Below are positions 4,184 through 63,910 of a stretch of 64,000 bases of DNA, in pieces. This DNA is from Brachynemurus nebulosus. Its lineage: Eukaryota > Arthropoda > Insecta > Neuroptera > Myrmeleontidae. Under the pieces are notes generated by a model that did no database searches, was not told the DNA's origin, and saw only the letters and a program-made list of their open reading frames with translations. Made by a program: the position numbers and the translations under genes. The stretch is taken from contig JAPWDM010000022.1 of NCBI GenBank assembly GCA_035578155.1, positions 1,488,001 to 1,552,000 of the forward strand, in the 5' to 3' direction. The number at the start of each line of letters is the position of its first letter. The first letter of the stretch is position 1.

Positions 4184-5295
4184 TAAAAACTAGGTGGTGA
4201 GGTTAGTTAAGGTTAGGTTAGTTTAGTTAGTTTTGACAATATACTTAGACTTTTGTATAAAAACTAATTAGGTTAAGGTTATAGGTGGTGAGGTTAATTA
4301 AGGTTAGGTTAGTTTAGTTAGTTTTGAAAATGTACTTCGACTTTGGTATAAAAACTAATTAGGTTAAGGTTATAGGTGGTGAGGTTAATTATGGTTAGGT
4401 TAGTTTAGCTAGTTTTGAGAATATACTTCGACTTTGATATAAAAACTAATTAGGTTAAGGTTATAGGTGGTGAGGTTAGTTAAGGTTAGGTTAGTTTAGT
4501 TAGTTTTGTCAATATACTTTGAATTTAATATAAAAACTAATTAGGTAAAGGTTATTGGTGGTGAGGCTAGTTAAGGTTAGGTTAGTTTAGTTAGTTTTGA
4601 CAATCTACTTCGACTTTGATATAAAAACTAATTAGGTTAAGGTTATAGGTGGTGAGGTTAGTTGAGGTTAGGTTGGATCAGTTAGTTTTGACAATATACT
4701 TCGACTTTGATATAAAAACAAGTTAGGTTAAGGTTACAGGTGGTGAGGTTAGTTAAGGTTAGGTTAGTTTAGTTAGTTTGATAATATACTTCGACTTTGA
4801 TATAAAAACTAATTAGGTTAAGGTTATAGGTGGTGAGGCTAGTTAAGGTTAGGTTAGTTTAGTTAGTTTTGACAATCTACTTCGACTTTGATATAAAAAC
4901 TAATTAGGTTAAGCTTATAGGTGGTGAGGTTAGTTGAGGTTAGGTTGGTTCAGTTAGTTTTGACAATATACTTCGACTTTGGTATAAAAACTAATTAGGT
5001 TAATGTTATAGGTGGTGAGGTTAGTTAAGGTTAGGTTAGTTTAGTTAGTTTTGGCAATATACTTCGACTTTGGTATAAATGCTAATTAGGCTAAGGTTAC
5101 AGGTGGTGAGGTTAGTTAAGGTTAGGTTAATTTAGTTAGTTTTGACAATATACTTTGACTTTGGTATAAAAACTGATTAGGTTAAGGTTATAGATAGTGA
5201 GGTTAATTAAGGTTAGGTTAGTTTAGTTAGTTTTGAGAATATACTTCGACTTTGGTATAAAAACTAATTAGGTTAAGGTTATAGGTGGTGAGATT
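4184..5295 (+). repeat. 91-bp minisatellite, about 12 copies, TTAGG-rich
   Basis: The phrase ATAGGTGGTGAGGTTA recurs at 91-bp spacing (for example 4284, 4375 and 4466) to about 5292. Each unit holds AGGTTAGGTTAGTTTAGTTAG-like sequence and then ACTTCGACTTTGATATAAAAAC. The first half of each unit resembles the insect telomeric repeat (TTAGG)n in degenerate form. Units differ by only a few bases, so the array has expanded or been homogenised fairly recently. Confidence 0.9.
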
Positions 5296-5394
5296 AGTTA
5301 CTATTTTTATAAGAAAAATTTTTTTTAAAATAGTTTGAAATTTACCGCTTGTTATTGGTTTTATAACTAAATGTCAGGATTATTAGATTTATAA

Positions 5395-11907: not shown

Positions 11908-13736
11908 TTATATTGTCTGAGCTTTTGTTTTCTGTATAATATCCTTATAAGAACCTGAATATTCGACTGGAAGATACTCTAACGTAGCTTCAATATCTTT
12001 GAGTTTTTCTGTAGAAATTTTACTCTTGCATTCAAGTTGCGGTATTTCGAAGTCTCTGATGTCATTTAAATTAACACCCTTTTTTAACACTCGGCAACTG
12101 GTCCAAGGCTCTAAGTTATTGTGACTTTTTCTTGTTAGTACATATTCGGGTTTGTCGGATGATATTTTTATCCAGCATACTGAACTAATGTTAAGGGTTT
12201 TTGTGTTCAAAAACATATCACTAGCTTTCTGAAGATCTTTAAAATCAGTAGCTTCCATGAGATGAACGGTGTTAGGCTTCTCGTGACATGTTTCATTTAT
12301 CATAGTCTTGAGTTGTTCAGGTACAAAAATTTTATTAATGCGTTTTCTTTTTTCTATTTGAGCAAAATCTCTGTCACAGGCTAAATAAGAATGCCTACTT
12401 ACCAAATATTTATGCTCAATTTGATCGAATTTTTTATTTGTTACAAGGTAAATAAGCAAAAACAGTACCATACGGTTTTTATTTTGGCCTACGCAATTGT
12501 CCGACCAAATTGTAAGATTTCTTTTGAAAGAAAAATTTTCCATTTTTAAATTCTTTAGAAGTATACTTCATTGCCTCCTCTGCCTGTAATCGATTGATTC
12601 CAAAGACACATATGTGCAGTATTATTATCCGAAAAATGTATACCTAAGTTGTAGCATGCCAACTGTCTGCTATAAAACATTTGCGAATGTGTCAGTGTTG
12701 GAATATAAGGAACTTGTTGTAAAACTATCGAAATGACTGTGTCATTACTATCTGATTTTTGAGATTTTATATCATCTTCATTCATAACCATTCTAGCGCG
12801 TTCCACTTTCCTATGATGCAGTTCTAACTTCATAGTGTATCTCTTCTTTTCAATAGTGTTTTCTGAGACTTTAATTTTATTTTGATAGAAATCGCAAATG
12901 GAGCAAGTATCTGTCTTAGTTGGTCCAAAACGCAAATCAGGAAATCACTTTTTAAAAACATCCGAAAAGTATTTGTAAGTTGCAATAGTTTCCGGGTATT
13001 TTTTTTTGAACGCAATGTACAGACGGTTTATATTAAGATCTGGACTAAGAAAACTTTTGCTAGATTTTTGACAACTGTAATGGTTTTCTTCTATGGGAAA
13101 TGACTGAATATGAGTACGTATTTGTTCTTGTAATTCCAAAGAAAATTTCCTTGATTTATTTGATTTTCCTCTCTTATCAGTATATACAGTTTCTCCATAT
13201 TTCTGTTTTTCAACTATGAACATTTTTATGCGATAAACCAAATATAGCAGAAAGTGTGTTGCGGCAAACTTGAATGTGTTCCCTACTTCCGTTCGGTACT
13301 GTGTAATAAACTGTACATTGTCGAGAACTTTCAGAAGGATCTTTATAGTTACCATGGCGTCCTCTACGAATTTTTACAACTTGTATCAATCCCAATAAAT
13401 ATGTACCCTGTTTAATGTGATCCCTTATTTTGTAATAATCACGAAATAGCTGGTGTTTATGCTCAACAGATAATTCCTTACATTCGTAATGGCATTTACA
13501 CCTTGTCTTGAAATTTAAAAATAATATACCAGTTAAGTTCAAAAAAAAAAATGTGGTTATGTTGAATTTACCGGTCCCGGTAGTAATTTCGCTTCTCTTA
13601 CGGTGTTATTTCGTGAAACATATTCACATCCACTTAAACGTAATCTTTTTCTTTCATTTTTTGCACTCTCCGTACCTCTAATTCGCCTTTTAACAGATTT
13701 ATTAATTTCAGAACATACATGAATATTAAATTACAA
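11908..13736 (-). pseudogene. Decayed transposable-element-type gene with D-N-x-x-G-Q-N-K-N motif
   Basis: Minus-strand coding remnant read from 13736 down to 11908. Parts in order: a lysine/arginine-rich exon (13736-13572, with LRLSGCEYVSRNN); a 65-bp intron (13571-13507) with GT donor and AG acceptor still intact; a cysteine-containing segment (CKCHYECKELS) and VQVCRNTL; a segment with SPDLNINRLYIAF; GPTKTDTCSICDFY, a likely zinc-binding pair; then WSDNCVGQNKN and a C-terminal region to the stop at 11908. The SDNC-x-GQNKN signature and this order match a large multicopy family in aphids, beetles and Hydra that I take to be transposon-derived with a DDE-like nuclease. Breaks: a frame change at about 13225, an in-frame TGA at 12945-12947, and another frame change at about 12550. 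The family assignment is from memory of the motif and unverified. No start codon is found in the first exon. Confidence 0.7.
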
Positions 13737-16917: not shown

Positions 16918-16923
16918 TACATA

Positions 16924-17920
16924 AGTAGATAGGCTATAAGAGAACGGGAGCACCGTAGAACCTCAATTATCCGGACTACTTTTTTGACCGTGTTAAGAAC
17001 CGTGTAGTTTGGGGTCCTACTGTACCTAGTGCAAAACTTGACCTTTGACCCGGCACGTACCAGGTACATGTATTTAAAATTTGTTGTTGACATTTGACCC
17101 ACACGCGCTCATACTGTTGGCCTTGAAACTCCAAAGACCTGAGTCATCACCAGCAACCAAATTAATTTATGTTAACCCATTATGCGCCATCACAATTTAC
17201 TTATAACAATTTGGTTTTGTGTTAACCCATTACCCGCCAGCACTGACGTAGTTTTTGAATGCAAACCTAACGCATGCGCAGACTGAATTTAAGTACACGA
17301 CGCATGCGCAGACTGAATTTTAGGCCACAATTTGATAGATGGGGCACACTACCGCGTCTAAAATGTGGGGAATACCCTAACTCGGGGGTGGTCCCAAACT
17401 TTTGACACCGTACTGTACTTAAATTTTTGGTACACTACCGTGTCAAAAGTGTGGACCCCCCTGGTCAAAAAGGTATCCGATCACTTTTTGAAACGTACTG
17501 TACGTGCAAACCTTGGCCCCAACACGCGCTTGCCTTAAGTACGTCATCTTAAACGAACTATCACGTCAAAAAATGTGGGGAATACCCTAACTCGGGGGTG
17601 GCCCCAAATTTTTGACGCCGTACTGTACTTAAATTTTTGGTACACTACCGTGTCAAAAGTGCGGGCCCCCCTGACCAAAAAGGTATCCGACCACTTTTTG
17701 AAGCGTACTGTACGTGCAAACCTTGACCCCAACACGCGCTTGCCTTAATTGCGTCATTTTAAACGAAAGGTACATTACCAAGTCAAAAATGTGGGGAATA
17801 CCCTAACCCAAGGGGTGGCCGCTAAATTTTGTGGGGGGCACTGTACCAAGCGCTAGCCGCAATCATGACTTCAGACTCCAGATTTCAGACTCCGGGGTCC
17901 AGACTCCAAATTTCAGACCG
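16924..17920 (+). repeat. Left terminal inverted repeat (997 bp)
   Basis: Reverse complement of 27020-28016 with only a few mismatches near the inner border (for example TTTCAGACCG against ATTTCTGACCG). It contains CGCATGCGCAGACTGAATTT twice (17272 and 17303 regions). It also contains tandem units of about 210 and 216 bp, each starting AAATGTGGGGAATACCC (17361, 17571 and 17787), and many GTACTGTAC palindromes. No reading frame in it looks like a gene. Confidence 0.95.
17361..17830 (+). repeat. Tandem units of 210-216 bp inside the left TIR
   Basis: AAATGTGGGGAATACCCTAA begins at 17361, 17571 and 17787. Each of the first two units continues with GTACTGTACTTAAATTTTTG, the ACACTACCGTGTCAAAAGTG phrase and CCAACACGCGCTTGCCTTAA. 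The third is truncated. The mirror set lies in the right TIR (about 27110-27580). Confidence 0.9.
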
Positions 17921-18692
17921 CTACTGTACTGCCGGAAATTTTGGTGTCAATTGTACTTGAGGTTTTTTTTTGTATATGAGTCAAGTCTTTATAAGATTAA
18001 TTTGTTTATTTAATAAAAACTCGTGACTTTATACGGTTTGTGTTTGTTTATTTAAGATTTTTTAGCTGACTTAGGATGATGTAATTTCATAATATGTTTG
18101 CATCATAGACAGAGGGGAATTTTATTTAAAAGCAAGTCACAACTTGTCAGTTCCAGGAATTTGTTTACATTAATGTCATCGTAAATCATTAATTTAACTA
18201 TGTTTATTTAAGATTTTGCTGACTCATATTCAGATATTTTTTTAATTTGTTTATTTATATGTTTTAATTTAAAAAATGTTTATTTAAGATTTTGACAACA
18301 CAGCAATTTCTTTGTTTGATTTCAAATACGAAATACTTTTCTCGGAATTTTTAATTTATGGCCTGATAATAATCGGGGGTTTTTTCAATTTGTTTATTTA
18401 AGGTTTAATTTTAAAAAATGTTTATTTAAAATTAGTCAGCAATTCTTTTATTACTTTTCAAATGCGAAATAAATTTCTCGGAATTTGACATTTGACCTTC
18501 GGTTATTTGCGTTGTAAAAATTCTGAGCCAGCATTTTTTGTGATTCCCCTCCAGAATTTTTCGAGCAGTTAAAATCGTATAAATTGAGGTCTGCGTGCCC
18601 CCTCAAATCACTTCTTCAGCAAACTTCAAGCAGTTAATATTGTTATTGTTGCAAGAATTTGTATCGAGATTTTTTTAAATTAAAATACAACG
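17921..18692 (+). promoter_or_regulatory. PolB upstream region with TATA box and repeated TGTTTATTTAAG motifs
   Basis: Non-coding stretch between the TIR and the polymerase gene. TGTTTATTTAAGATTT occurs exactly at 18045, 18201 and 18277, with close variants at 18391 (AAGGTTT) and 18419 (AAAATTA) and shorter forms at about 18003 and 18249. A TATA box (TATAAAT) lies at 18578-18584, with an arthropod initiator-like TCACT at 18608-18612 about 32 bases downstream, or TTCAGC at 18615-18620. Translation would start at the ATG at 18693. The repeated motif may bind a regulator of the element, possibly its own C2H2 protein; that is inference. Confidence 0.6.
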
Positions 18693-21600
18693 ATGGCTTC
18701 ATTAAACGACGTGGCAACTAGAATGGTGGAAAATGTACGAAACGCGCTATCATTACTGGAAATGGATACCCGGGATGCAGATGAATTGGAAAAATGGATG
18801 AAATATACAAATACCAACATACGACTAATCAACAAGGCTATACGTGGAGCGGAAAATTTGGGACAACGGAAACACTTCGAGTCATGTGCGGGAAAAATGA
18901 AAGGATTTCGAATCAGAATGAAGGCGCTACGAAAACATGGTAAGTTTTTTCAAATATAAATTTATTTTTTAATGATTTTTTTTATAATTTTGATATATCA
19001 ACATGGTAAGTTTTTTAAATATAAATTTTTTTTTTAATGATTTTTTATAAATTTGATAAATAATTTTTTTTTTATGTTGATTGTTTCAGGTGCTGGCATG
19101 AATCGAAATCAACGTAAAAGATCTGATAGAATTCAATGGGCTGACGTGGAATCCGCATTTGCAAGTCGAATACGAACGGGAGTGGTTACCAACATAACAC
19201 ACATAGAGCCAAAGGACTTTTTAGACGACGCTACATCGATGTTCACTCGGCGAATACAAAATATATTAAAAAAATACTTAACGATAAAAGTCAACACAAC
19301 GTTTTGCGGGTTATTTGTGAAAACTGATGGTGATGAGGATAAATACGACATGAAACATTTCAATACACCGAATATCATAATAGATCGTGGAACAAACTTA
19401 AAACAGTGCTACATGGAACATATACAGGAACCAATTCTAAGAAAATTGAGCGAGTTTACCGAGTCGGGAAGCGGATGGGCTTTATCAAGCATAATCAACC
19501 TAGCCGTGAACGTGAACAAATACACACCTTTCCGTGGATCAAGCTACATCGAATTGCCACAGGAAATAAAACGAAAACAAGCATGTATCAACATTGAAAA
19601 CTTCAACGATGACGCCTGTTTCGCGTGGGCAGTGGTATCGGCACTTTATCCAGCAAAGCGAGGGTGTGTTAACAGAACATCAGCGTATCCACACTACTCA
19701 ACGGTGCTAAATTTAGACGGGATACAGTTTCCAATGACGATCCAACAACTGAGCAAATTCGAGAAACAGAACCCAACAATATCAGTCAACGTGTTTATGT
19801 TAAAGAAACAAAATGGACATTTCGAAACCGTACCTGCTGCGCTAACGAGAGAGAAGAAAGAACATCACATAAACCTTTTAATGATCCAGAACGAGTATTA
19901 CGAGGATGAAGACAACAAACAGGACAACGATCAAGATTTACGCTACCATTTCTGCTGGATTAAGGACTTATCGCGACTCGTGTCAAGACAACTATCAAAT
20001 TGTAATGGAAAAAAATACATCTGCGATCGATGCCTGAATTACTTTTATACGGAAGACAAGCTGATCAAACATACCGAAGACTGCGTCAACATGAACAACT
20101 GTCGGGTGATAATGCCAGAAGGGAAAAGCAAATACATATCGTTCAAGAATTATAGCAACAAAAAACGTGTTCCATTTATAATTTACGCGGACGTCGAATC
20201 ATTCCTGCAACCGGTAACGGAAAACGAAAATCGGAAAAACACTACAACGTATCAACAACATCGGGCATACAGTATCGGTTACTACTTTCACTGCTCCTAC
20301 AACAACCAGTTAAGCTACTATAGATCATACCGCGGGCCGAATTGCGAAAAATGGTTCGCGAAAGAACTGGCAACGTTACGTGAAAATATCTTGGAACCCA
20401 TATATGACAACATAATACCAATGAACGAGTTAACATCAGAGGAACAACAGCAACTTAAACAACGAAGTACCGGGTGCCACATCTGCGAGAAACCATTCAA
20501 ACCTGAGGATATTGTGGTTCGTGATCATAACCACTTCACCGGCGAATACAATGGACCTGCGCACAAGGGATGCAACTTGAATTATAAGGATTTCCATATG
20601 ATTCCTGTTGTATTCCACAACTTGAGTGGTTATGATGCACATTTCGTAATAAAGGATATAGCAACAGCATTCGAGGGACGTGTCGACTTACTACCAATCA
20701 ACAAGGAACGATATATTGCATTCACTAAACATGTTACGGGCAGCGAAATTACATTTAGATTCATCGACTCTTTCCGATTTATGGCATCAAGTTTGGATAA
20801 ATTATCTTCATATCTCAACGAGTTCAACATAGTTAAATCACAATTTCCGGATACCGACTACAAATTACTTACGCGCAAAGGTGTTTTTCCGTACGACTAC
20901 ATATCAGGCTGGGATAAATTGGAAGAAACATGTTTACCATCACGGGAGAAATTCTACAATCGACTCAACGACAACGATATCACCATGGATGATTATACAC
21001 ACGCACAAAAAGTTTGGGATACATTCAAAATACAGACGCTTGGAGAATACTCGGATTTATATATGAAAACGGACATACTATTACTCGCGGATGTTTTCGA
21101 GAATTTTCGGGATACGTGCATGCGCACACACGGATTGGATCCAGCTCATTATTACACGACGCCGGGACTTACGTGGGATGCAGCCTTAAAATATACAAAA
21201 GTAGAGTTAGAACTGATATCTGATGTGGACCAATTATTATTCATTGAACGTGGTATTCGAGGTGGATTGAGCCAGTGTAGTAACCGATACGCGACAGCAA
21301 ACAATAAATATATGAACACCTACGATCCGGACGAGGAATCAAAATACCTGATGTACTATGACGTGAACAACTTATATGGATGGGCAATGTCACAATACTT
21401 ACCAACGGGAAATTTCAAATGGATGGAAAATACTGACATAGATGTTCAACAAATACCCGATGATTCACCTACAGGATACATACTTGAAGTGGATTTGGAA
21501 TACCCGAGAGAACTGCACGATAAACACAACGATTTACCATTATGTCCAGAAAGAATGTGTGCACCCGGTACTAAACAGGAAATGTTATTGGCAACGCTAT

Positions 21601-22571
21601 ACAACAAACAGAAATACGTGATACACTATCGGAACCTGAAACAATGTCTACAACACGGGATGAAATTAAAGAAAATACATAGAGTGCTACAATTCGATCA
21701 ATCACCATGGCTTAAATCCTACATAGATTTAAACACAGCTCTAAGACAAACGGCGGGAAACGAATTCGAGAAAAATCTCTACAAGCTACTCAACAACGCG
21801 GTCTTCGGGAAAACGATGGAAAACGTACGGAAACACTCGATCGTGAAATTGTTAACGAAATGGTATGGACGATATGGTGCGGAAGTTATGATAGCGAAAC
21901 CGAATTTCCACAGCCGCACCATATTTGACGAGAATCTTATCGCAGTCGAACTACGGAAAACGGAAGTGTTTATGAACAAACCAATATATGTCGGGCAAGC
22001 AATTCTGGATATTTCGAAAACATGTGTCTACGATTTTCATTACAACTACATACAGCCAACGTTCGGGAACAACAGCAAATTACTCTACACAGATACAGAT
22101 TCGTTAATTTACGAGATAAAATGCCCAGATATTTACGAAATAATGAAACGAGATATTCAGTACTTTGATACGTCAGATTACAGCGCGGATAATCAATATA
22201 ATATGCCAAGAGTCAATAAGAAAATACCCGGGTTAATGAAGGATGAGCTAAATGGACGAATATTTACAAAATTTGTGGGTTTAAGATCAAAAATGTATAG
22301 TTGTCAAGTGGACGGCGAGGATCACACGAAGAAAGCGAAAGGTGTAAAGAACTCTGTGGTTAAGAAAACGATAACTTTCAACGATTACGTGGACTGTCTA
22401 AAACACAATACAATCATAAACCGACAACAAAACCTGATACAATCGAAAAAACATAACGTGTATAGTGTAACTCAGAACAAGGTGGCGCTCAGCCCGTACG
22501 ATACGAAACGATATATTGTGGAGGGGGAAACGGATACTTTAGCATGGGGACATTACTCGTTAAATTACTGA
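18693..22571 (+). CDS. Family B DNA polymerase (DNA_pol_B_2, viral/organellar type), two exons
   Basis: Replicative polymerase of the element, presumed protein-primed at the TIR ends as in Polintons. Exon 1 is 18693-18939 (82 codons plus 1 base, ATG at 18693), the intron 18940-19089 and exon 2 19090-22571, giving 1,242 residues. The phases agree and no in-frame ATG is needed at exon 2. Approximate residue positions in the spliced protein: a papain/OTU-like candidate domain (about 270-390, NDDACFAWAVVSAL ... HFCWIKDL); a C2H2-type finger (CDRC at 394 to the final Cys at 414); ExoI YADVES (D450, E452); an endonuclease-VII-like zinc site (CHIC 545, DHNHF 561, GCNLNY 576); ExoII SGYDAHF (D598); ExoIII Y-x3-D (D744); motif A YDVNNLYGWAMS (D840); motif B KLLNNAVFGKT (981-991); motif C YTDTDS (1082-1087); C-terminal KKAKGVKNSVV. 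All catalytic acids are present and there is no break. The DxNNLYGWAMSQ form of motif A marks a subgroup common in insects and cnidarians. Confidence 0.92.
18940..19089 (+). other. Spliceosomal intron in the polymerase gene, with duplicated donor
   Basis: Donor CATG|GTAAGT at 18940 and acceptor TTGTTTCAG| at 19089. Removing 150 bp joins phase-1 exons in frame and explains why exon 2 has no sensible start codon. The donor segment AACATGGTAAGTTTTTT is duplicated inside the intron, at about 18935 and again at about 19001, with its following AT-rich stretch. This leaves a second potential donor about 66 bp downstream. Confidence 0.85.
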
Positions 22572-22606
22572 ATATCAACAACGTTAAAATTAGTACGCAA
22601 GTGGAA

Positions 22607-23317
22607 ATGGCATCGTCATCATCGGCTTACTGGAAACGGCTACAAATATTTTCAAGTGAACTGGATAAACTACGTAAACGGATTGATACTTACGAAAAAA
22701 CAATTGATGCTATTGTAAAAATGCAAAATTTGAAATTGTCTGAACCGGAATCAATGGAGTGGGATAAAATGGATGTTTCAATTGGTGAATTTTTCGAACG
22801 TGAACCAATGCTACTGAACGAACTGACTTTGGAAACATTTCTTCAAATCTACAAGTGGATCAGTTTGAATGTGCTGAAAAGTTATGGTGCGAAAATCATA
22901 CAACGCGCCTGGATTTGGTTACCATCCGATTATCGAGCCATGTTTCAAGAATGTGAACCATGTTTTGAACATTATAATCGACCCTGGCAACAAGATCATA
23001 TTGATGGACCACCTGGTTTGAAAATTCGCTGTGAAATGTGCAAGAATGGTGTGAAAATGGAGGAAAACTTTCAACCGCCTGTTGGTGAACCATTGACATT
23101 TACAACACGGATTTCACACGTTGAAGACATATTTCTGACTCATCCTTATTTGTATACAAAAGTCAGAAATTTCGATATGTTATTATACTTAACAAAACAA
23201 CTATTGAAATATGATATTTGGGTGCAACATCTGTATGCATATATGATACCCGAATATGCACAACGAATTTGTCAAGTATGGGATCAGTTACCTGAAAACA
23301 TGAAACAATTACGTTAG
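22607..23317 (+). CDS. Hypothetical protein, 236 aa, coiled-coil N-terminus and CxxC...CxxC zinc-ribbon candidate
   Basis: I do not recognise this family. I chose the ATG at 22607 (MASSSSAYWKRL). An upstream in-frame ATG at 22544 would overlap the end of the polymerase gene. Residues about 9-45 form a charged, likely coiled-coil segment (ELDKLRKRIDTYEKTID). The middle is rich in tryptophan and aromatic residues. Two cysteine pairs, CEPC and CEMC about 28 residues apart (near residues 117 and 148), could bind zinc. The C-terminal third is hydrophobic-aromatic (DMLLYLTKQLL). It lies 35 bases downstream of the polymerase stop in the same direction and is intact. It is followed by an AT-rich stretch with several TTTATTGTAAAAAATATT repeats and AATAAA signals. 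A DNA-binding, terminal-protein or virion role is possible but unproven. Confidence 0.75.
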   Translation: MASSSSAYWKRLQIFSSELDKLRKRIDTYEKTIDAIVKMQNLKLSEPESMEWDKMDVSIGEFFEREPMLLNELTLETFLQIYKWISLNVLKSYGAKIIQRAWIWLPSDYRAMFQECEPCFEHYNRPWQQDHIDGPPGLKIRCEMCKNGVKMEENFQPPVGEPLTFTTRISHVEDIFLTHPYLYTKVRNFDMLLYLTKQLLKYDIWVQHLYAYMIPEYAQRICQVWDQLPENMKQLR

Positions 23318-23669
23318 GGTGTTATTGAATATATAAACAAATCATACAATTTTTAATATTTATTTATTGTAAAAAATATTTCATGTACATTTATTGTAAA
23401 AAAATATTTCATATACAAAACATTTATTGTAAAAAATATTACATATACATTTATTGTGAAAATATTTTGTATTCATACTTATATTTTAAAAATAAAGAAC
23501 AATAATTATTTACATATATGTGTTATTTATTTGAAAAAAAAAAAACCTTTTTATCTTACAGGGTTAAAAAAATATAAAAATAAAATATACACTTCAATGA
23601 GGGATAACTGCTGCTTCTTATACGGTGGTGTTCTTCAAAATTCAGTAAATTCTTAGTGTGGATAATCAA
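23318..23669 (+). repeat. AT-rich 3' region with about 40-bp repeated units
   Basis: TTTATTGTAAAAAATATT recurs about four times between 23360 and 23470. It follows the 236-aa ORF and precedes the convergent minus-strand gene, so it is likely a shared polyadenylation zone for both directions. The small frame at 23456-23656 looks spurious. Confidence 0.5.
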
Positions 23670-24314
23670 TTAATCATCATCATCATCATCATAATCGCTA
23701 GCATCTTCTTTATCAGTTTCATCCAGATAATCACCTAGTGGCTCAATAACATCAGCCTTTTGAAGTTCGCGAAGTATAGAGAATATTTCTCGACCAACAG
23801 TAGTTTCTTTTAAAGCATTTAACTCTTTGATTAAATCTTCTCGATCGTAAACGTTAAACAACAACATATTTTTATTTTCCTCTAAACTTCGAATAATATT
23901 GAGTATTTTTTCACCAGTCTCTGAAGTCTCGTATAAACGTTGTACTTCATCTATTAAAGTATTAGGATTATGCCAGTATTTTATTTTTTTCGATTGTATG
24001 TTAACATTTCTAGACTCTTTCAAGTTGTCTTGCTTAAAATGCTTAGCTAAGGCCCCGTTTTCGACATTTTCATTTGAAGCTATATGACGTTTTAAGCTTA
24101 TTGGATTAACCTGATTGACAATTTTCGCTTCATTTTCCGAGTCAACGTTTCGAACCTCTTTTAACATTATAATATCTAAAGCAGTTCCTAAAAGTTTAGT
24201 TAGTTGTGAAGAGGAGGTTGTTTCATTGCAATTGTTATTAATTGCTGTTAAGTGATTTACTTGCTTACTTTCATTAGACCAACTATCTTTCTCGTTTTCA
24301 GATTGACGACGCAC
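23670..24314 (-). CDS. C-terminal part of C2H2/acidic-tail protein: two tandem helical repeats and a poly-Asp end
   Basis: Open minus-strand frame of about 214 residues ending in a DYDDDDDD tail. Two related copies of one motif are visible: KYWHNPNTLIDEVQRL...EKILNIIRSLEE and YDREDLIKELNAL...REIFSILREL. The W-x(2)-P-N-x-L-(I/V) then I-x-I-I-(R/E)-x-L-(R/E) pattern recalls a small domain I associate with multicopy virus-like insect genes (WDDPNELVDRL type); this is from memory. There is no in-frame ATG at the 5' side (the open frame begins at a GTG). Its 17-base overlap with the C2H2 frame (24298-24654) suggests one gene divided by a one-base shift or a small intron. Antisense to the polymerase and convergent with it. 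A regulator or replication accessory is plausible. Confidence 0.65.
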   Translation of the reverse strand: MRRQSENEKDSWSNESKQVNHLTAINNNCNETTSSSQLTKLLGTALDIIMLKEVRNVDSENEAKIVNQVNPISLKRHIASNENVENGALAKHFKQDNLKESRNVNIQSKKIKYWHNPNTLIDEVQRLYETSETGEKILNIIRSLEENKNMLLFNVYDREDLIKELNALKETTVGREIFSILRELQKADVIEPLGDYLDETDKEDASDYDDDDDD

Positions 24315-24654
24315 GGTTTTCTCCTCTTTTCAAAGAGTTAAATTTGGCTTGAATGGCTTCAGTTGCAGCAGCTATCCTTTTTTGGTCAAACGGATTCAAG
24401 ATTGCTTCAGAGTAATCAATATCATGCTGTAGTTGAGATGTATTTTCATCATCATTATCATCAAACCTAGATATAGAGATATCATCAGGTGTTTTATTAT
24501 TAGCATCATATGGTATGAATTTGCTTGATGAGTTATCATTCTTTCCAATCGTACAATCATTAATATTGCTTAACGAATTATGTTGAGCATTTAAGTGTCT
24601 AGAAAGATTAGACTTTCGCGTAAATGCTTTAGCACAAAAATCACAATTATACAT
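24298..24654 (-). CDS. C2H2 zinc-finger protein, N-terminal part
   Basis: ATG at 24654. Residues 4-25 hold one classical C2H2 finger (CDFCAKAF ... RHLNAQH: C-x2-C-x12-H-x4-H). After a serine/asparagine-rich acidic linker, the segment IAAATEAIQAKFNSLKRG leads to a stop at 24298 in this frame, while the next frame continues the protein (23670-24314). A TATATATAAG box on the minus strand (24733-24724), with initiator-like sequence at 24690-24670, sits upstream of the ATG and supports this start. Likely a nuclear DNA-binding protein of the element. Whether the frame change is real, an intron or decay is open. Confidence 0.7.
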   Translation of the reverse strand: MYNCDFCAKAFTRKSNLSRHLNAQHNSLSNINDCTIGKNDNSSSKFIPYDANNKTPDDISISRFDDNDDENTSQLQHDIDYSEAILNPFDQKRIAAATEAIQAKFNSLKRGENRASSI

Positions 24655-24721
24655 CGTTCAGCGGGAGGTCTGAAGCGTTCGCTAGTAAATGAATAACTGT
24701 TCAAAGATTTATTGCTTCTCT

Positions 24722-24733
24722 ACTTATATATAC
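24722..24733 (-). promoter_or_regulatory. TATA box upstream of the C2H2 gene
   Basis: CTTATATATA on the + strand, read TATATATAAG on the minus strand, about 70 bases upstream of the ATG at 24654. It overlaps the end of the heptad-encoding frame coming from the right. Confidence 0.45.
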
Positions 24734-24756
24734 TTAGCTCATTTGCTTCACCGAGC

Positions 24757-25241
24757 GACTCATTTGACTCCAACGAGTGACTCACATGCTCCCGGAGTGT
24801 CTCATTTTGTTCCCGGAGTGACCCATTGGGCTCCCGGAGTGACTCATTTTGCTCCCAGAGTGACTCATTGGGCTCCCGGAGTGACTCGTTTTGCTCCCGG
24901 AGTGACTCATTTTGCTCCCGGAGTGACTCATTTTGCTCACGGGGTGACTCATTTTGCTCCCGGAGTGACTCATTTTGCTCCCGGAGTGACTCATTTTGCT
25001 CCCGGAGTAACTCATTTCGCTCCCAGAGTGACTCATTTTGCTCCCGGAGTGACTCATTTTGCTCCCGGAGGACTCATTTTGCCCCCGGATTGACTCATTT
25101 TGCTCCCGGAGTGACTCATTTTGCTCCCGGAGTGACTCATTTTGCTCCCGGAGGACTCATTTTGCTCCCGGATTGACTCATTTTGCTCCCGGAGTGACTC
25201 ATTTTGCTCCCGGAGTAACTCATTTTGCTCCCGGAGTAAAT
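24757..25241. repeat. 21-bp minisatellite, about 22 units (ACTCATTTTGCTCCCGGAGTG)
   Basis: About 22 tandem units of 21 bp. Two units are only 20 bp (a missing T at about 25069 and 25153). Because 21 is a multiple of three, several frames stay open. On the minus strand one frame spells leucine heptads (LREQNES)n, another spells SGSKMSH, and the third meets a stop in every unit. The heptad frame is the only one with a structural pattern, that of a coiled coil. Confidence 0.95.
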
Positions 25242-25425
25242 CATACACCTTATCATCCTTAAAGAGCTCATACACCTTATCATGGTTAAAGAGCTCATAC
25301 ACCTTATCATGGTTAAAGAGCTCAGACACCTTATCGTGGTTAAAGAGCTCATACACCTTATCATGGTTAAAGGGCTCATACACATTATCATGGTTAAAGG
25401 GTATAAAATAGTTAAACTTACACAA
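25054..25425 (-). pseudogene. Repeat-encoded coiled-coil protein, probably frameshifted
   Basis: Minus-strand frame from an ATG at 25425. It begins MCKFNYFIP, then about six 9-residue units of FNHDKVYEL type (from the 27-bp repeats), then leucine heptads LREQNEL/LREQNES (from the 21-bp repeats). At the 20-bp unit near 25153 the frame slips to the SGSKMSH reading, and at the second 20-bp unit near 25069 it slips again and stops at 25054. With both missing bases present the heptads would run on to a stop near 24735. So this may be a long coiled-coil gene damaged by two single-base losses, or slippage variation in a fast-evolving repeat. No homologue recognised. Confidence 0.4.
25242..25405. repeat. 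27-bp minisatellite, 6 units
   Basis: Six units of TCATACACCTTATCATGGTTAAAGAGC, the last ones ending AAAGGG. It directly adjoins the 21-bp array and shares its TCAT-rich edge. The unit length keeps frame in every direction. Confidence 0.95.
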
Positions 25426-25515
25426 AATATTGTCAATTTACCGGTGGTTGTCAAAGAGTTAACATCTCTTTCGCTGAAAAAACAATTTCGTGGTATAACA
25501 ATTGTATTTCGAACC

Positions 25516-25692
25516 ATGATAATTTACAATTCAGAGCAGTCCACCACTAGACAACCTAGCAAAGGACTTTCGAAACCTAAGATCATTAAACGTAAAACTT
25601 TTAAGCGACAACACATTTCACCCGAAAATTTAGCATTCCTTAAATCACTAGGTCTTAAAGTGAAAAGAACATGGTACTCAGTAATGTGCTAA
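25516..25692 (+). CDS. Small basic hypothetical protein, 58 aa or more
   Basis: ATG at 25516, stop at 25690-25692. Basic, with KPKIIKRKTFKRQ followed by ISPENLAFLKSLGLKVKR. The frame stays open upstream through the 27-bp repeats to 25282, so the true start may lie further left or in another exon. The ending (N-x-x-FL-x-SLG-x-x-V/L-K) recalls C-termini of structural or DNA-binding proteins in insect virus-like elements, a resemblance from memory only. Same direction as the polymerase and the next ORF. Confidence 0.4.
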   Translation: MIIYNSEQSTTRQPSKGLSKPKIIKRKTFKRQHISPENLAFLKSLGLKVKRTWYSVMC

Positions 25693-25801
25693 ATATTATT
25701 AACAGTTTGTAATTTGATGGTCAACTAGCAATAGCTATTAGTATCCATTTTCGGATACATCCCACAAATTAACTAACTATCCTCACCAATTTTAATTATT
25801 T

Positions 25802-25836
25802 TATATAAAGTTGTGGATTGTGTGAGTAAATTCAGT
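25802..25836 (+). promoter_or_regulatory. TATA box and TCAGT initiator
   Basis: TATATAAAG at 25802-25810 and the arthropod initiator TCAGT at 25832-25836 are spaced 32 bases apart, with an ATG at 25856. Textbook core-promoter geometry, directly before the next ORF. Confidence 0.65.
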
Positions 25837-25855
25837 TCTACGGCGGCGATAAAAA

Positions 25856-26345
25856 ATGGCGTTTCTTGATATACAAGGTTATCAAGGAGCTAACAGCCAA
25901 TTTTATTTTAAAGAAGTTGGTATCGTTGCGGAAAATTCGGATGAAATATTACATCTTATATTCGATGCACCGTTTGATTTCAACGAGTTGCCGAAGAAAT
26001 ATGAACGGGTTGCTGCACGTTGGCTTTGCCGAAATTGGCATGGGATACCTTGGTCGTATGGATTTATTCCGTACAAAAAAAACTTCATACCATATTGAAA
26101 CCTATATTAAAGAAGTTTGATGTCATATACGTCAAGGGCAGTGAAAAAGGAAATGGATTTCAAATTTGTTTGATGACACCGAACACCGGTCGTGGATTTT
26201 GAATTTGGAGGAAATATTTGATGTATCGAAGATTTCCAATCTGCGAGATGAATATTATTCAAGACGTTGTATGCTTCATTCATACAAAATTTGTTCATTA
26301 GAAAATTGTATTCTTTTAAAAAATTTTTATATGAAAAATAAATAG
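25856..26345 (+). pseudogene. Virus-like-element gene of MAFLDIQG type, two frame breaks
   Basis: ATG at 25856 (MAFLDIQGYQGAN). The first frame carries QFYFKEVGIVAENSDEILH, LPKKYERVAARWL and GFIPYKKNF to a stop at 26096-26098. The second frame (about 26100-26168) carries DVIYVKGSEKGNGF. The third (about 26172-26345) carries WILNLEEIFDV and RCMLHSYKICSLENC to a stop at 26343-26345. These segments come in the order of one multicopy insect protein family (short N-terminal DIQGF, central W-x-x-N-x-G-I-x-W-x-x-G-F-x-P-Y, then YVKG-x-EK, then a Cys/His end), seen in many virus-like insect elements; the resemblance is from memory. Two single-base-type breaks make this copy non-functional unless spliced. 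Function in the family unknown to me; the fold may be nuclease-like. Confidence 0.6.
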
Positions 26346-27019
26346 ATTTTAAGTAATATATAGATTTAAGCAATTTAATTTTTTGTATACATATTCTATA
26401 AATAAAATTTAGAAAAAAAAATATGTGCGTTTTATTTAATTATTACCCTGAATTCCCCTATTTTTTACAGGAAGAAGTTACTTTCGTTAATCTATAAAAG
26501 TATTGACAAAAAATCTTATGAAATTTTTTTATTCTAATTGAAAAGCATATTATTTCATGATACACCCTGTATAAGAATACACTCATGCATACATGCATTT
26601 ATACCTGCACCCATGTATACATGCATTTGTATATTATAATTATATTATGTATGTGTGATGTAAGTTTTAAGATGATATTCTATAAATTTTTTACCCCAAA
26701 ACTACTAATTTATAAAAAAATCTAGCAAATCTTAATGCTGGTATAATTTTTATATTAAACAACATAGTTAAATTATAGTATACATATTAAGAAATAATCC
26801 AAGTATTTATTGTACAGTAATATATACGAATTTATTTGCAAACATATTACTTTTTTGCTAATTAAGCAAATATTTTTCCAATGCTGATAAAAGTGATAAA
26901 TTATTTTAGTTAGATTTTGTTGACATAAAGACTACAATCATTTACTAGTATGTATTTATAAAATTAAAATTAAATAGCGATATACAGAGTGTATACATAA
27001 CATATTCTTAATATACAAC
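26346..27019. other. AT-rich non-coding stretch before the right TIR
   Basis: No gene seen. It holds a short CATGCATTTATACC/CATGCATTTGTATA near-duplicate at about 26585-26630. Confidence 0.5.
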
Positions 27020-28016
27020 CGGTCAGAAATCTGGAGTCTGGACCCTGGAGTCTGAAATCTGGAGTCTGAAGTCATGATTGCGGCTAGCGCTTGGTACAGT
27101 GCCCCCCACAAAATTTAGCGGCCACCCCTTGGGTTAGGGTATTCCCCACATTTTTGACTTGGTAATGTACCTTTCGTTTAAAATGACGCAATTAAGGCAA
27201 GCGCGTGTTGGGGTCAAGGTTTGCACGTACAGTACGCTTCAAAAAGTGGTCGGATACCTTTTTGGTCAGGGGGGCCCGCACTTTTGACACGGTAGTGTAC
27301 CAAAAATTTAAGTACAGTACGGCGTCAAAAATTTGGGGCCACCCCCGAGTTAGGGTATTCCCCACATTTTTTGACGTGATAGTTCGTTTAAGATGACGTA
27401 CTTAAGGCAAGCGCGTGTTGGGGCCAAGGTTTGCACGTACAGTACGTTTCAAAAAGTGATCGGATACCTTTTTGACCAGGGGGGTCCACACTTTTGACAC
27501 GGTAGTGTACCAAAAATTTAAGTACAGTACGGTGTCAAAAGTTTGGGACCACCCCCGAGTTAGGGTATTCCCCACATTTTAGACGCGGTAGTGTGCCCCA
27601 TCTATCAAATTGTGGCCTAAAATTCAGTCTGCGCATGCGTCGTGTACTTAAATTCAGTCTGCGCATGCGTTAGGTTTGCATTCAAAAACTACGTCAGTGC
27701 TGGCGGGTAATGGGTTAACACAAAACCAAATTGTTATAAGTAAATTGTGATGGCGCATAATGGGTTAACATAAATTAATTTGGTTGCTGGTGATGACTCA
27801 GGTCTTTGGAGTTTCAAGGCCAACAGTATGAGCGCGTGTGGGTCAAATGTCAACAACAAATTTTAAATACATGTACCTGGTACGTGCCGGGTCAAAGGTC
27901 AAGTTTTGCACTAGGTACAGTAGGACCCCAAACTACACGGTTCTTAACACGGTCAAAAAAGTAGTCCGGATAATTGAGGTTCTACGGTGCTCCCGTTCTC
28001 TTATAGCCTATCTACT
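27020..28016 (-). repeat. Right terminal inverted repeat (997 bp)
   Basis: Mirror of 16924-17920, with the same internal 210/216-bp units and the same GTAGAACCTCAATTATCCGG phrase near its outer end. It ends CTACT|TACATA, the last six bases being the target site duplication. Confidence 0.95.
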
Positions 28017-28115
28017 TACATATTATAGTAAGCGATATATATAGTGTTTATAACACATTGCAAGAAAGGATCAAGTGTGAAATGTCCTTCATTTATGTCA
28101 CTATATTTGAACATA

Positions 28116-31100
28116 CATATATACAAGCTGAGTTTTTCGAGAGTTGACATTTTGATCACAGCCAAACCGTTAATTTAATCGAAAAATTCTTCAAATAAAA
28201 GTTCTAGATATCGACGGGGGCTATAAATCAGGAGCTTTATAGCTCCTATGGTTTTCGAGTTATGATACAAACTTATAGATTCTTAAATGAAACTGTATGT
28301 TAATTTTTCGATAAAACTGATCTAATGCATCAATTAAAAGTATAAATAAAGAAAAAAAATTTTTTAACCAAGTTTATTTTTTGAATTTTTCTTTAATTTA
28401 GTAGTTAAGCGGTAAAAATATGCATACCTATTTGAGGCTACTTCAACCGAGAGTATTTTATTCGGTTAACGTTTTTATTACATCCAAGAAAACAACCTTA
28501 TTCAGTATCATTTTCTGTAATACAAATTGTAGTAATCCAGATTTTGGAGTATAGATGTCGGGCTCTATTTCAAGTTTTAAATATTTTTGCACAATAAAAT
28601 CAAATTACTTTAAAAGATTAGTATTTAAAGTAACATAATTCAAAAAGAATTTGAAATTATTCATTAATTTACTGAAAAACATATTTATTTTTTATTTATT
28701 TATAGAACGGCAGGTGGCAATAAAATAAATGTACATACCCAGTACAAACCAAATTGACATTGGCGTTTCTTAATAGTAGCAAAGTGAGGTTAACCGGCAA
28801 CGAAAATACTATTAATAAGTGTACTCCAATAATGTAAAAATAAATGAAATTCGATAGTATTTTTTTTTATTAAAAATCAAATTAAAAAGAAATTCTTTCA
28901 CAAAAAACTTTTAATTTCCTTTAAAAATACTTGCTACAAAAATATGTTTAGACGCCTATGTATCTGTCAAATAGTGACATTTCAGAAAAATAATTTTTTT
29001 ATTTTTCAATGAATTAAAACTGAAATTTCATTTTCTTATGGTATTTAGTTATCATTTTTATATGATAATTTAATCTACTTAATAATTTTAAGGGCATAGC
29101 CGGGTAAGATAGGGAAAACGGCCCTTGACGCAAAATTGATTGTTTTTATAGGAAATAATACTCCTTAGCCCCAGATACATTCCTGCCAAATTTCAACCCT
29201 CTGAGGCTAATAGTTTATGAATTGACAAACAAACGAAATTACTGAGCCGATTTATTTGAGTTTAATATATATTGTGTACTCACCTTAGGCAAAATAATAA
29301 AAAAAAATTAACGTTATATGCCTTTATTAAACTAATTTTTTTAAATTTTAAAATTTAAGTAAATTTTCTTTGGCACTTACGCGCTGGCGTCACCCACCAT
29401 TTTTTGTTCAATAATATGTCTCTTACTACTCTATAACATATATTTTTACGGAAAAATTTTAGTTGGTAGAACATAGTAACATTTCAATACAAATGCATGT
29501 CATGTTCGGTACTACATATATTACTTATGTATAAAAAGGACCATAAAGTGAAGCATCTGCCTGATTTTTAAAACACAGTAGAACTTTGAGGAGTGCAATA
29601 AAATGTTCTCTTCCCCCCTGAGTTGCAGTTCTCGGAGTTCCTGTGACGGTCTAAAAAAAATTATATTTTGACTTGTTATAAAAAATATGTTTTAACTTAT
29701 TAAAAAATAATTTTCAAGGTTAATTTTACCATGAATCTGAATATTTGAATGAAATCAATAAAATTATCTCAGCATACTTACTAATTAAAATTACATCTAA
29801 CTCAACAAAAATTATAAGTTTTAGAAACTTTATTTAAATAAAGATAATAATAATAACAATAATACGTCTTAAATGTTATATTGTTTTCGTAATAGTAAAC
29901 ATTAACTTAATTGATTGGGAAAAAAACTTCAACAATGTATAGTACTAACAACAGTCCGGCTAAAACTTGTTGTAGTTATAAAAATATATAGGTAAATTAC
30001 ATGTAGGTACATATAACTAACTTTAACAGACCCTCTCACATGATGTTTTTGTTGCACTTCTTAATGAGGTGCAGAAAGTGGAGTTTTTCTGTAATAAAAT
30101 TACCCACGTTCATAACAACGACAAACAAGCTTAGACAATCGTCTAGCTTTATCTGCTGTTTGTCTTCTTTTGTTAACACGATGACGGGTCATGGGGAATT
30201 ATAACGAAATGACCAACTGGTATACTATTTTGACAGCTAATAAACTTTGAATGAAATTGTTGACGTCGTAATACGTGGTGTATGAGCTAATAAAGTTTCA
30301 CTTGACGTTTTACAAAGAAAACAACTCTGAAAAAAGAGGAATCAGTATCTATTTTGTTTTATTAATAAAAAAAGACAAACGGCAGACAACGTTGGACTTG
30401 AGTAAATTTAAACTAGTTTATCGTAGTTATGAACGTATGTAATTGTATTATTTTAGAAATAGGGTAGATATTTTACTTTATAGCCCTTTTTATACATAAG
30501 TAATATATGTAGTACCTAACATGGTATGCATTTGTATTGAAATATTACTATGTTCTACCAACTAAAATTTTTCCATAAAAATATATGTTATAGAGTACTA
30601 AGAGACATATTATTGAACAAAAAATGGTGGGTGTCGCTAACGCGTAAGTGCCAAAAAAAATTTACTTTAAAAATTTTAAAAAAATTAATATAAAAAATGG
30701 ATATAACGTTAATTTTTTTTTTTTATTACTTCACCTAAGGTGGGTACACAATATATATTAAACTCAAATAAATCGGCTCAGTAATTTCGTAAAAAAAAAT
30801 GTTTTTGGAAAATTTTTGTCTGTTTGTGTATTCATAAAATATTAGCCCCAGAGGGTTGAAATTTGGCAAGAATGTATCTGGGGCTATGCAGTATTATTTC
30901 CTATAAGAACAATCAATTTTGCATCAAGAGTCGTTTTCCCTATCTTACCCGGCTATGCCCTTTGCGATAGAAAACGTAATAATCGTTTTATTTTTCGTTA
31001 CTACATTGTTAAAAATGGCAGCCATATTGAGCTAATATCTTTTTAAATTACGTAAAATCCTAATCGTTTGCAAGTACTTGAGTACGAAATTTAAAAGTGT

Positions 31101-41009: not shown

Positions 41010-41586
41010 AGCACAATAGTTTTTGCGTAATGCGTGCATATGGTTAAAATGGTTTTTCTATTTTCCCATGGAAATGGGATATTTTTCCGGAGTAAAAAAT
41101 ATCTTAGATGTTGATCCAGGTAATAAGTTATCACCATATCAAATTTCAACAAAATCTGTTCAATAGTTTTTGCTTAATGTGTGCACATGCTCAAAACGGG
41201 TTTTCTGTTTTCCCGTGGGAATAAGCCATTTTTTCGGAGTAAGAAGTATCTTAGATGTTGACCCAGTTAATAAGTTATCACTACACCAAATTTCATCAAA
41301 TTCTGTTTAATAATTTTTGCATAACATGCTCAAAATGGGTTTTCTGTTTTCCCGTGGGACTGGGGCATTTTTCCGGAGTAAGAAATATCTTAGATGTTGA
41401 CTCAGGTAATAAATTATCGCCATAATAAATTTCAACAAAATCAGACAGACAGACAAACAAAATTTTAAGAATAGCTGTTTTGGTATCTACATCGATAACT
41501 ACTTGTAGTAGCAGTACAATTTTCACAAAATATTCCATGTACAAGAACGGTCTCGTTACAGTTTTATTATATATACCTATAGATAT
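41010..41586 (+). repeat. Interspersed repeat A, copy 2
   Basis: Same orientation and order as 1-605: three TTTTCCCGTGGGA/GTAATAAGTTATC units (near 41110, 41260 and 41400), a short GACA run, then CTACATCGATAACTA and the AACGGTCTCGTTACA tail. Confidence 0.8.
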
Positions 41587-63837: not shown

Positions 63838-63910
63838 AACGGAATTTGACCTAACCTAACCTAACCTAACTTAACCTAACTTAACCTAACCTAGCCTAGC
63901 CTAGCCTTTT
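63838..63910 (-). repeat. Telomere-like (CCTAA)n interstitial repeat
   Basis: About ten units of CCTAA/CTTAA, ending in CCTAG variants, that is (TTAGG)n on the minus strand, the common insect telomeric repeat in degenerate form. Confidence 0.9.

Follow-up and report, generated by a model that had tools for sequence, protein, structure and literature searches.

Structure and ends of the element

The window, the whole stretch of 64,000 nucleotides from Brachynemurus nebulosus that was analysed here, holds an element of 11,093 bp (16,924-28,016) that begins with AG and ends with CT. It is flanked by an exact 6-bp target site duplication, TACATA, at 16,918-16,923 and 28,017-28,022. Inverted-repeat comparison revealed terminal inverted repeats (TIRs) of 997 bp at 16,924-17,920 (plus strand) and 27,020-28,016 (minus strand). 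The two TIRs agree at 994 of 997 positions; all 3 mismatches lie within the innermost 27 bp, and the outer 970 bp are identical. Within the left TIR, positions 17,356-17,830 hold about two tandem units of 210 bp. All coordinates given by the initial annotation of this DNA, together with the TACATA duplication, the AG ends, the 997-bp TIRs, the total length and a spliced family B DNA polymerase (PolB), were found to be exact. That annotation had also described the element as complete and as recently inserted. Completeness holds for the ends and fails for the genes, since a zinc-finger gene and a small gene are each broken across frames. Recent insertion agrees with the TIRs, which show 0 differences over their outer 925 bp, although replication could also keep the TIRs alike.

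Genes and other parts of the window copy

A non-coding stretch at 17,921-18,692 adjoins the left TIR on its inner side; it is 94-95% like the full-length copies described below and gave no Pfam match in six frames. The PolB gene follows on the plus strand, with exon 1 (82 codons plus one base) at 18,693-18,939 and exon 2, open over 1159 codons, at 19,090-22,571. The exons are joined by an intron with GT/AG borders. Exon 1 was assigned by these borders and by its match to homologs: searched alone against 120 fetched homologs, it matched several, the best at 1.5e-11. Exon 2 was assigned by its open reading frame, homologs and Pfam. D774, D1018 and D1020 of the protein are invariant among 17 sequences, and we take them to be polymerase motif residues. 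Judging from the family, the polymerase is presumably protein-primed. It also carries an endonuclease VII-like insert, seen in weak Pfam and PHROG matches, and such a domain has likewise been predicted in Spodoptera Maverick PolBs, according to an excerpt of the source (PMC5803895).

Searching solved structures with PolB returned one match, at chance level, to a zinc-finger protein. Single-protein scans of viral contigs gave no match, an alignment-based scan of these contigs found one distant virus at 36% identity, and phage and plasmid collections had no match.

Downstream of PolB, ORF B (22,607-23,317, plus strand) is 98.7-99.2% identical in five full-length copies, and its frame stays open in every 11-kb and full-length copy checked; homolog searches with it found none. 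A break point follows at 23,561. To its left the window is colinear with the full-length copies, and to its right it carries sequence that, among the copies read, occurs in short forms only. The first gene beyond it, on the minus strand at 23,670-24,657, was identified by Pfam and copy comparison as the C2H2 zinc-finger gene of the short forms. It is open (327-328 codons) in six of the nine copies checked (L033-L036, L040 and L044) and broken in the other three (window, C58s and L047). Its protein shows by Pfam a single C2H2/BED-like finger and no catalytic domain.

A tandem-repeat scan placed a 21-bp array at 24,738-25,244 and a 27-bp array at 25,241-25,399. Beyond these, a capsid-region scrap lies on the plus strand at 25,584-25,697, where 89 of 114 positions match a full-length stretch that ends in the first capsid codons; the score of this match was 103, compared to 31 for the best of 200 shuffles. 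Comparison with the full-length copies further identified a small gene starting KMAFLDIQG (25,853-26,345, plus strand), broken across frames in the window. The small gene is open, with 162 codons, in four of five full-length copies and also in both arms of the short element C84. The five checked copies of the 11-kb type (window, L038, L040, L044 and L047) all have it broken, and in the arms of four PolB-less elements other than C84 it is altered. A homolog search with its first 81 residues found nothing. An AT-rich non-coding stretch at 26,351-27,019, recognised by composition and alignment, leads to the right TIR.

A six-frame Pfam scan of the window element, covering all of it except PolB and the right TIR, found no integrase, ATPase, protease or capsid gene. 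Taken alone, this silence is weak because Pfam also saw no protease in the one long copy examined with it and overlooked the capsid-like ORF of viral contig L001. As a positive control, the same approach did find integrase, ATPase or protease near PolB in contigs L005, L007, L012 and L014, which are filed under bacterial genomes. In tblastn searches with the integrase, ATPase, phospholipase and capsid of the long copies (E up to 1), nothing was matched in the window outside PolB. On both grounds, the possibility that another reading frame of the window conceals a capsid or integrase was rejected. By blastn, these four genes of the long form were also absent from 13 loci of other short copies.

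Full-length Mavericks in the same genome

The 960-Mb assembly that holds the window was searched with the TIR. Scoring the best 40 of 2749 candidates yielded 15 opposed pairs and 10 single ends; among these 40, the pairs fell into sizes of 10.4-11.3 kb (six), 9.4-9.7 kb (four) and 16.7-18.9 kb (five). The ends therefore recur, and further copies with the 11-kb layout and 6-bp duplications were found, as the initial annotation had proposed to check.

The five long copies (L023-L032) have TIRs, PolB and ORF B in common with the window, and their TIRs are 94-97% identical to those of the window. In one long copy, Pfam detected an rve integrase (4e-15) with a weak chromodomain, a Pox_A32 ATPase (8.8e-9), a phospholipase A2 (9.5e-13) and a double-jelly-roll capsid (1.6e-123); a protease was not found in this copy. 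Integrase, packaging ATPase, phospholipase and capsid are present in all five long copies at 98.6-100% identity. Longer copies that carry integrase and capsid genes between the same TIRs (five of five) thus lie in the same genome; the initial annotation had itself named such copies as evidence against its reading. Matches to the integrase query were obtained at 40 of 40 scored loci with about 100% identity (best 40 of 597 candidates), and the capsid query behaved likewise (40 of 40, about 100%; best 40 of 466 candidates). At least 40 integrase and at least 40 capsid loci at this identity indicate a full-length Maverick that was very active recently. Using tblastn, the zinc-finger protein of the short forms found no match in the five long copies, and both the zinc-finger gene and the 21-bp repeats are absent there.

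Between the window and the five long copies, the identity of PolB exon 2 is 97.3-99.5%, and 99.4-99.5% for the three closest. In a quick tree of 127 rows, which includes two full-length PolBs and has no bidnavirus row, the window and these two PolBs cluster at 100% within a large, mostly insect PolB set. The Megastigmus adintovirus lies inside this set, where the nearest neighbours of the window and full-length group are not resolved. A distinct lineage, one of two options offered by the initial annotation, is contradicted by the polymerase on both counts, and a separate PolB lineage was rejected on the grouping with full-length PolBs of the same genome.

The short form is a multiplied family

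As a junction query we used window positions 22,300-24,000 (1701 bp), which span the end of PolB, ORF B and the zinc-finger region. Whole-length matches to this query (two of them short by one base), with 96-100% identity, were obtained at 39 of 40 scored loci, among them the window. The match at the fortieth locus ends at query base 1262, which corresponds to window position 23,561, where full-length and short copies part. These loci are the best 40 of 1301 candidates, so that the scored counts may miss copies. A query with the zinc-finger gene matched at 40 of 40 scored places with 98-100% identity (best 40 of 1026 candidates); two of the matches lie within one element, 31 are 987 bp long, and that of the window is 991 bp. 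Since 39 of 40 scored loci span the one short-form junction, a simple one-off deletion was rejected.

Both ends were read for nine short and five long copies, and each of these 14 is flanked by a perfect 6-bp duplication that differs from all the others. The short form must have moved many times, because each of the nine short copies has its own duplication. Terminal bases and duplication length are the same in the 11-kb and the full-length copies. Complete reading of four 11-kb copies (window, C58, C106 and C129) showed them to be colinear, with arms of 997-998 bp; they are 98.5-100% identical outside the tandem array, compared to 94-96% within it.

Taken with these data, the description of a small, mobile element with Polinton-type ends and PolB, and with neither integrase nor capsid, was borne out. 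The suggestion that it is a deletion form can be kept in part. The element does lack the integrase-to-capsid block, but its layout has multiplied and includes a zinc-finger gene not present in any of the five long copies.

PolB exon 2 is open in nine of nine copies checked (two of these in part). Between full-length groups, a dN/dS of 0.07-0.14 indicates strong constraint. Differences found only in the window PolB are silent in 9 of 15 cases (p 0.0008 against neutrality), although 6 of the 15 are also seen in another full-length group, which makes gene conversion possible; among changes private to the window, five of nine are silent (p 0.02). The neighbour copy C58s has four private changes, all of which alter the protein and none of which is silent. 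One PolB site sets all four 11-kb copies apart from the three closest full-length copies. With silent and altering changes mixed, and some of them possibly due to conversion, PolB could be a passenger in the short forms. For the zinc-finger gene, no constraint was observed among close copies (dN/dS 0.7 to 2.5, from few changes). A diverged homolog in C84 is open with 48% amino-acid identity, and here dN/dS was 0.67-0.71 overall and 0.41-0.42 in the C part.

Origin by replacement and PolB-less relatives

The window was compared with the closest full-length group in steps of 300 bp. From 18.4 to 23.5 kb the identity is 98.7-100%; the following stretch to about 25.4 kb has no counterpart in this group and is common to the PolB-less short forms. 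In the alignment, the block from integrase to capsid is replaced by the C2H2 zinc-finger gene and the tandem repeats, and colinearity with the full-length copies returns at 25,770. The capsid scrap and the regained colinearity indicate that the short form descends from a capsid-bearing ancestor. Its PolB half, as judged by the alignment, was recently common to the full-length copies.

No PolB match was found in five short elements (C122a, C122b, C48, C1c and C84). These elements keep a zinc-finger gene and are nearly palindromic, with arms of about 3.4-4.1 kb for an overall length of 9.4-11.3 kb. Arm extension and near-palindromes are known from defective genomes of linear protein-primed DNA viruses; our literature search on such arm extension returned nothing usable. 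Among the full-length copies, four have arms of 1204-1220 bp and one has arms of 2861 bp. In the full-length copy L031/L032 (G000 C1:174854084-174872972), the left 2.86 kb, with the beginning of PolB, occurs again at the right end. A 10.4-kb copy (G000 C129:10832616-10843015) carries two zinc-finger genes in opposite orientation and is probably a nearly full palindrome. The PolB-less copies L034 and L035, which lie in opposite orientation, are 99.8% alike and have a variant in common in the outermost 27 bp of the TIR, while their 6-bp duplications differ.

A probable satellite lineage of a full-length Maverick

We consider it likely, with a probability of roughly three in four, that the element is one member of a non-autonomous lineage, a satellite of a full-length insect Maverick/Polinton in the same genome, with a PolB of its own and a borrowed integrase. 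Helper dependence is inferred because the integrase is absent from the short form; mobilisation in trans by the integrase of the full-length Maverick would account for its movement. As the alignment shows, a capsid-bearing ancestor lost the integrase-to-capsid block, where the zinc-finger gene and tandem repeats now lie, while its TIRs, ORF B and an open PolB from the protein-primed family were kept. In the proposed cycle, PolB would copy the linear element from its TIRs, and the integrase of a full-length copy would insert the ends of the short form at a new site and duplicate 6 bp there. Transmission inside helper capsids might occur as well. The near-palindromic relatives that lack PolB would depend entirely on proteins supplied in trans for both replication and insertion. 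The zinc-finger protein might bind the DNA of the element and tune its replication or integration; the absence of constraint among close copies and the broken gene in three of nine, the window included, argue against use of this gene.

A more far-reaching version of the satellite model, which we put forward tentatively, is that the short forms are a long-lived parasite line of an animal adintovirus-like virus, standing between a defective genome and a true satellite. Such a line might have kept the polymerase, shed integrase and capsid, used the zinc-finger gene to control or exploit the helper, and thrown off PolB-less palindromic sub-satellites that keep this gene. If so, it may limit the helper and in this way protect the host.

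It seems unlikely that the short forms are virus-like cheaters that are packaged and passed on in helper capsids and interfere, like defective interfering particles or virophages. Near-palindromes are expected as defective products of linear protein-primed replication, and both the PolB-less elements with their 3.4-4.1 kb arms and the long copy with 2.86 kb arms fit this description. The shorter length would also favour short forms, and the helpers are recent. However, transposition in the germ line accounts for the same insertions.

Very unlikely is a self-sufficient new lineage, in which ORF B or the zinc-finger protein provides an unrecognised integration function and the 11-kb form moves alone. 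ORF B, for which homolog searches were empty, is open throughout the 11-kb and full-length copies checked, and the zinc-finger protein is confined to short forms among the copies read. On the other hand, ORF B also occurs in full-length copies that have their own integrase, the zinc-finger protein shows by Pfam one C2H2/BED-like finger and no catalytic domain, and the terminal bases and duplication length do not differ from those of the full-length copies.

Least probable are plain fossils, in which full-length Mavericks suffered deletions once inserted and the short form never spread. The missing integrase-to-capsid block, the retained capsid-start scrap, the broken accessory genes and the insect genomes with only fragmented Mavericks, polymerase or integrase alone, reported in the available part of the source (PMC8504770), would fit, but one junction common to 39 of 40 scored loci (96-100%), found at independently duplicated sites (nine short copies, nine different duplications), already contradicts them, and none of the five full-length copies contains the sequence that took the place of the lost block.

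Comparison with known systems

According to an excerpt, an intact Maverick has TIRs, an integrase and ATPase, protease and capsid genes, in about 17 kb with little variation (PMC8097293). The window element has no integrase, which the five full-length copies have, and none of ATPase, protease or jelly-roll capsid, of which ATPase and double-jelly-roll capsid are found in the five long copies; it measures 11,093 bp, compared to 16.7-18.9 kb for the long copies. These long copies fit the type of a full-length, insect adintovirus-like Maverick/Polinton. With this type the window has in common the TIRs, the AG and CT ends, the 6-bp duplication and a PolB with endonuclease VII-like insert, and it differs in having no phospholipase gene and an added zinc-finger gene that is absent from the long copies read. 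Adintoviruses have been defined, in the accessible part of the source, by a PolB with N-terminal OTU-like domain, a hexon and an rve integrase with chromodomain (PMC11071296); the window has neither hexon nor integrase, whereas its full-length kin have both. Bidnaviruses are marked by a parvovirus-like capsid gene and a PolB of the bidnavirus type; the window is without any Pfam capsid match.

As would be expected of a satellite of a Maverick, the short form has its ends in common with an autonomous-looking element of the same genome and has multiplied as a distinct form. Non-autonomous derivatives of DNA transposons likewise keep the ends, lose the mobility enzyme and multiply beside autonomous copies. 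The window form differs from them by its open replicative polymerase and by a gene that was not found in the full-length copies read. Non-autonomous Polintons have been entered in Repbase. Helper-dependent satellites are alike in being shortened helper derivatives with common ends and palindromic relatives without PolB, and some satellites carry genes of their own. The window form is known from chromosomal copies alone, and its homology to the proposed helper is plain, unlike that of most satellites. Transpovirons and virophages are small partners of larger DNA viruses that bear TIRs or PolB; in the present system, satellite and proposed helper are closely related, and their host is an animal. 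A description of a PolB-bearing Maverick satellite was not found in the titles and abstract beginnings searched.

The origin of most satellites is not known, since they have little sequence in common with their helpers, as stated in an excerpt of PMC8635385. In the present case the origin from a helper can be read stepwise because a single genome contains the helper, a PolB-bearing short form, PolB-less palindromes and a full-length copy whose ends are extended, in insertions with target duplications. This makes it testable whether a Maverick integrase acts in trans and whether cheaters of their own keep Mavericks under control.

Other observations

Contigs L002-L014, which are filed under bacterial or archaeal genomes, contain Maverick-type PolB, some with integrase, ATPase or protease, and are probably eukaryotic contamination of the bins. 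In the window, inverted repeat pairs that are 80-95% alike lie to the right of the element at 29,090-30,962, possibly another old mobile element. A decayed gene with a DUF7869 domain (2.8e-18) is split over several frames on the minus strand at 11,908-13,605. A 91-bp satellite with twelve copies and a strong GC skew occupies 4191-5300, and a similar tandem unit of 146-147 bp occurs at two distant places, 45-434 and 41,014-41,442. At 63,849-63,907, inside the contig, there is a TTAGG-type block, (ACCTA)n on the plus strand, the usual insect telomere repeat.
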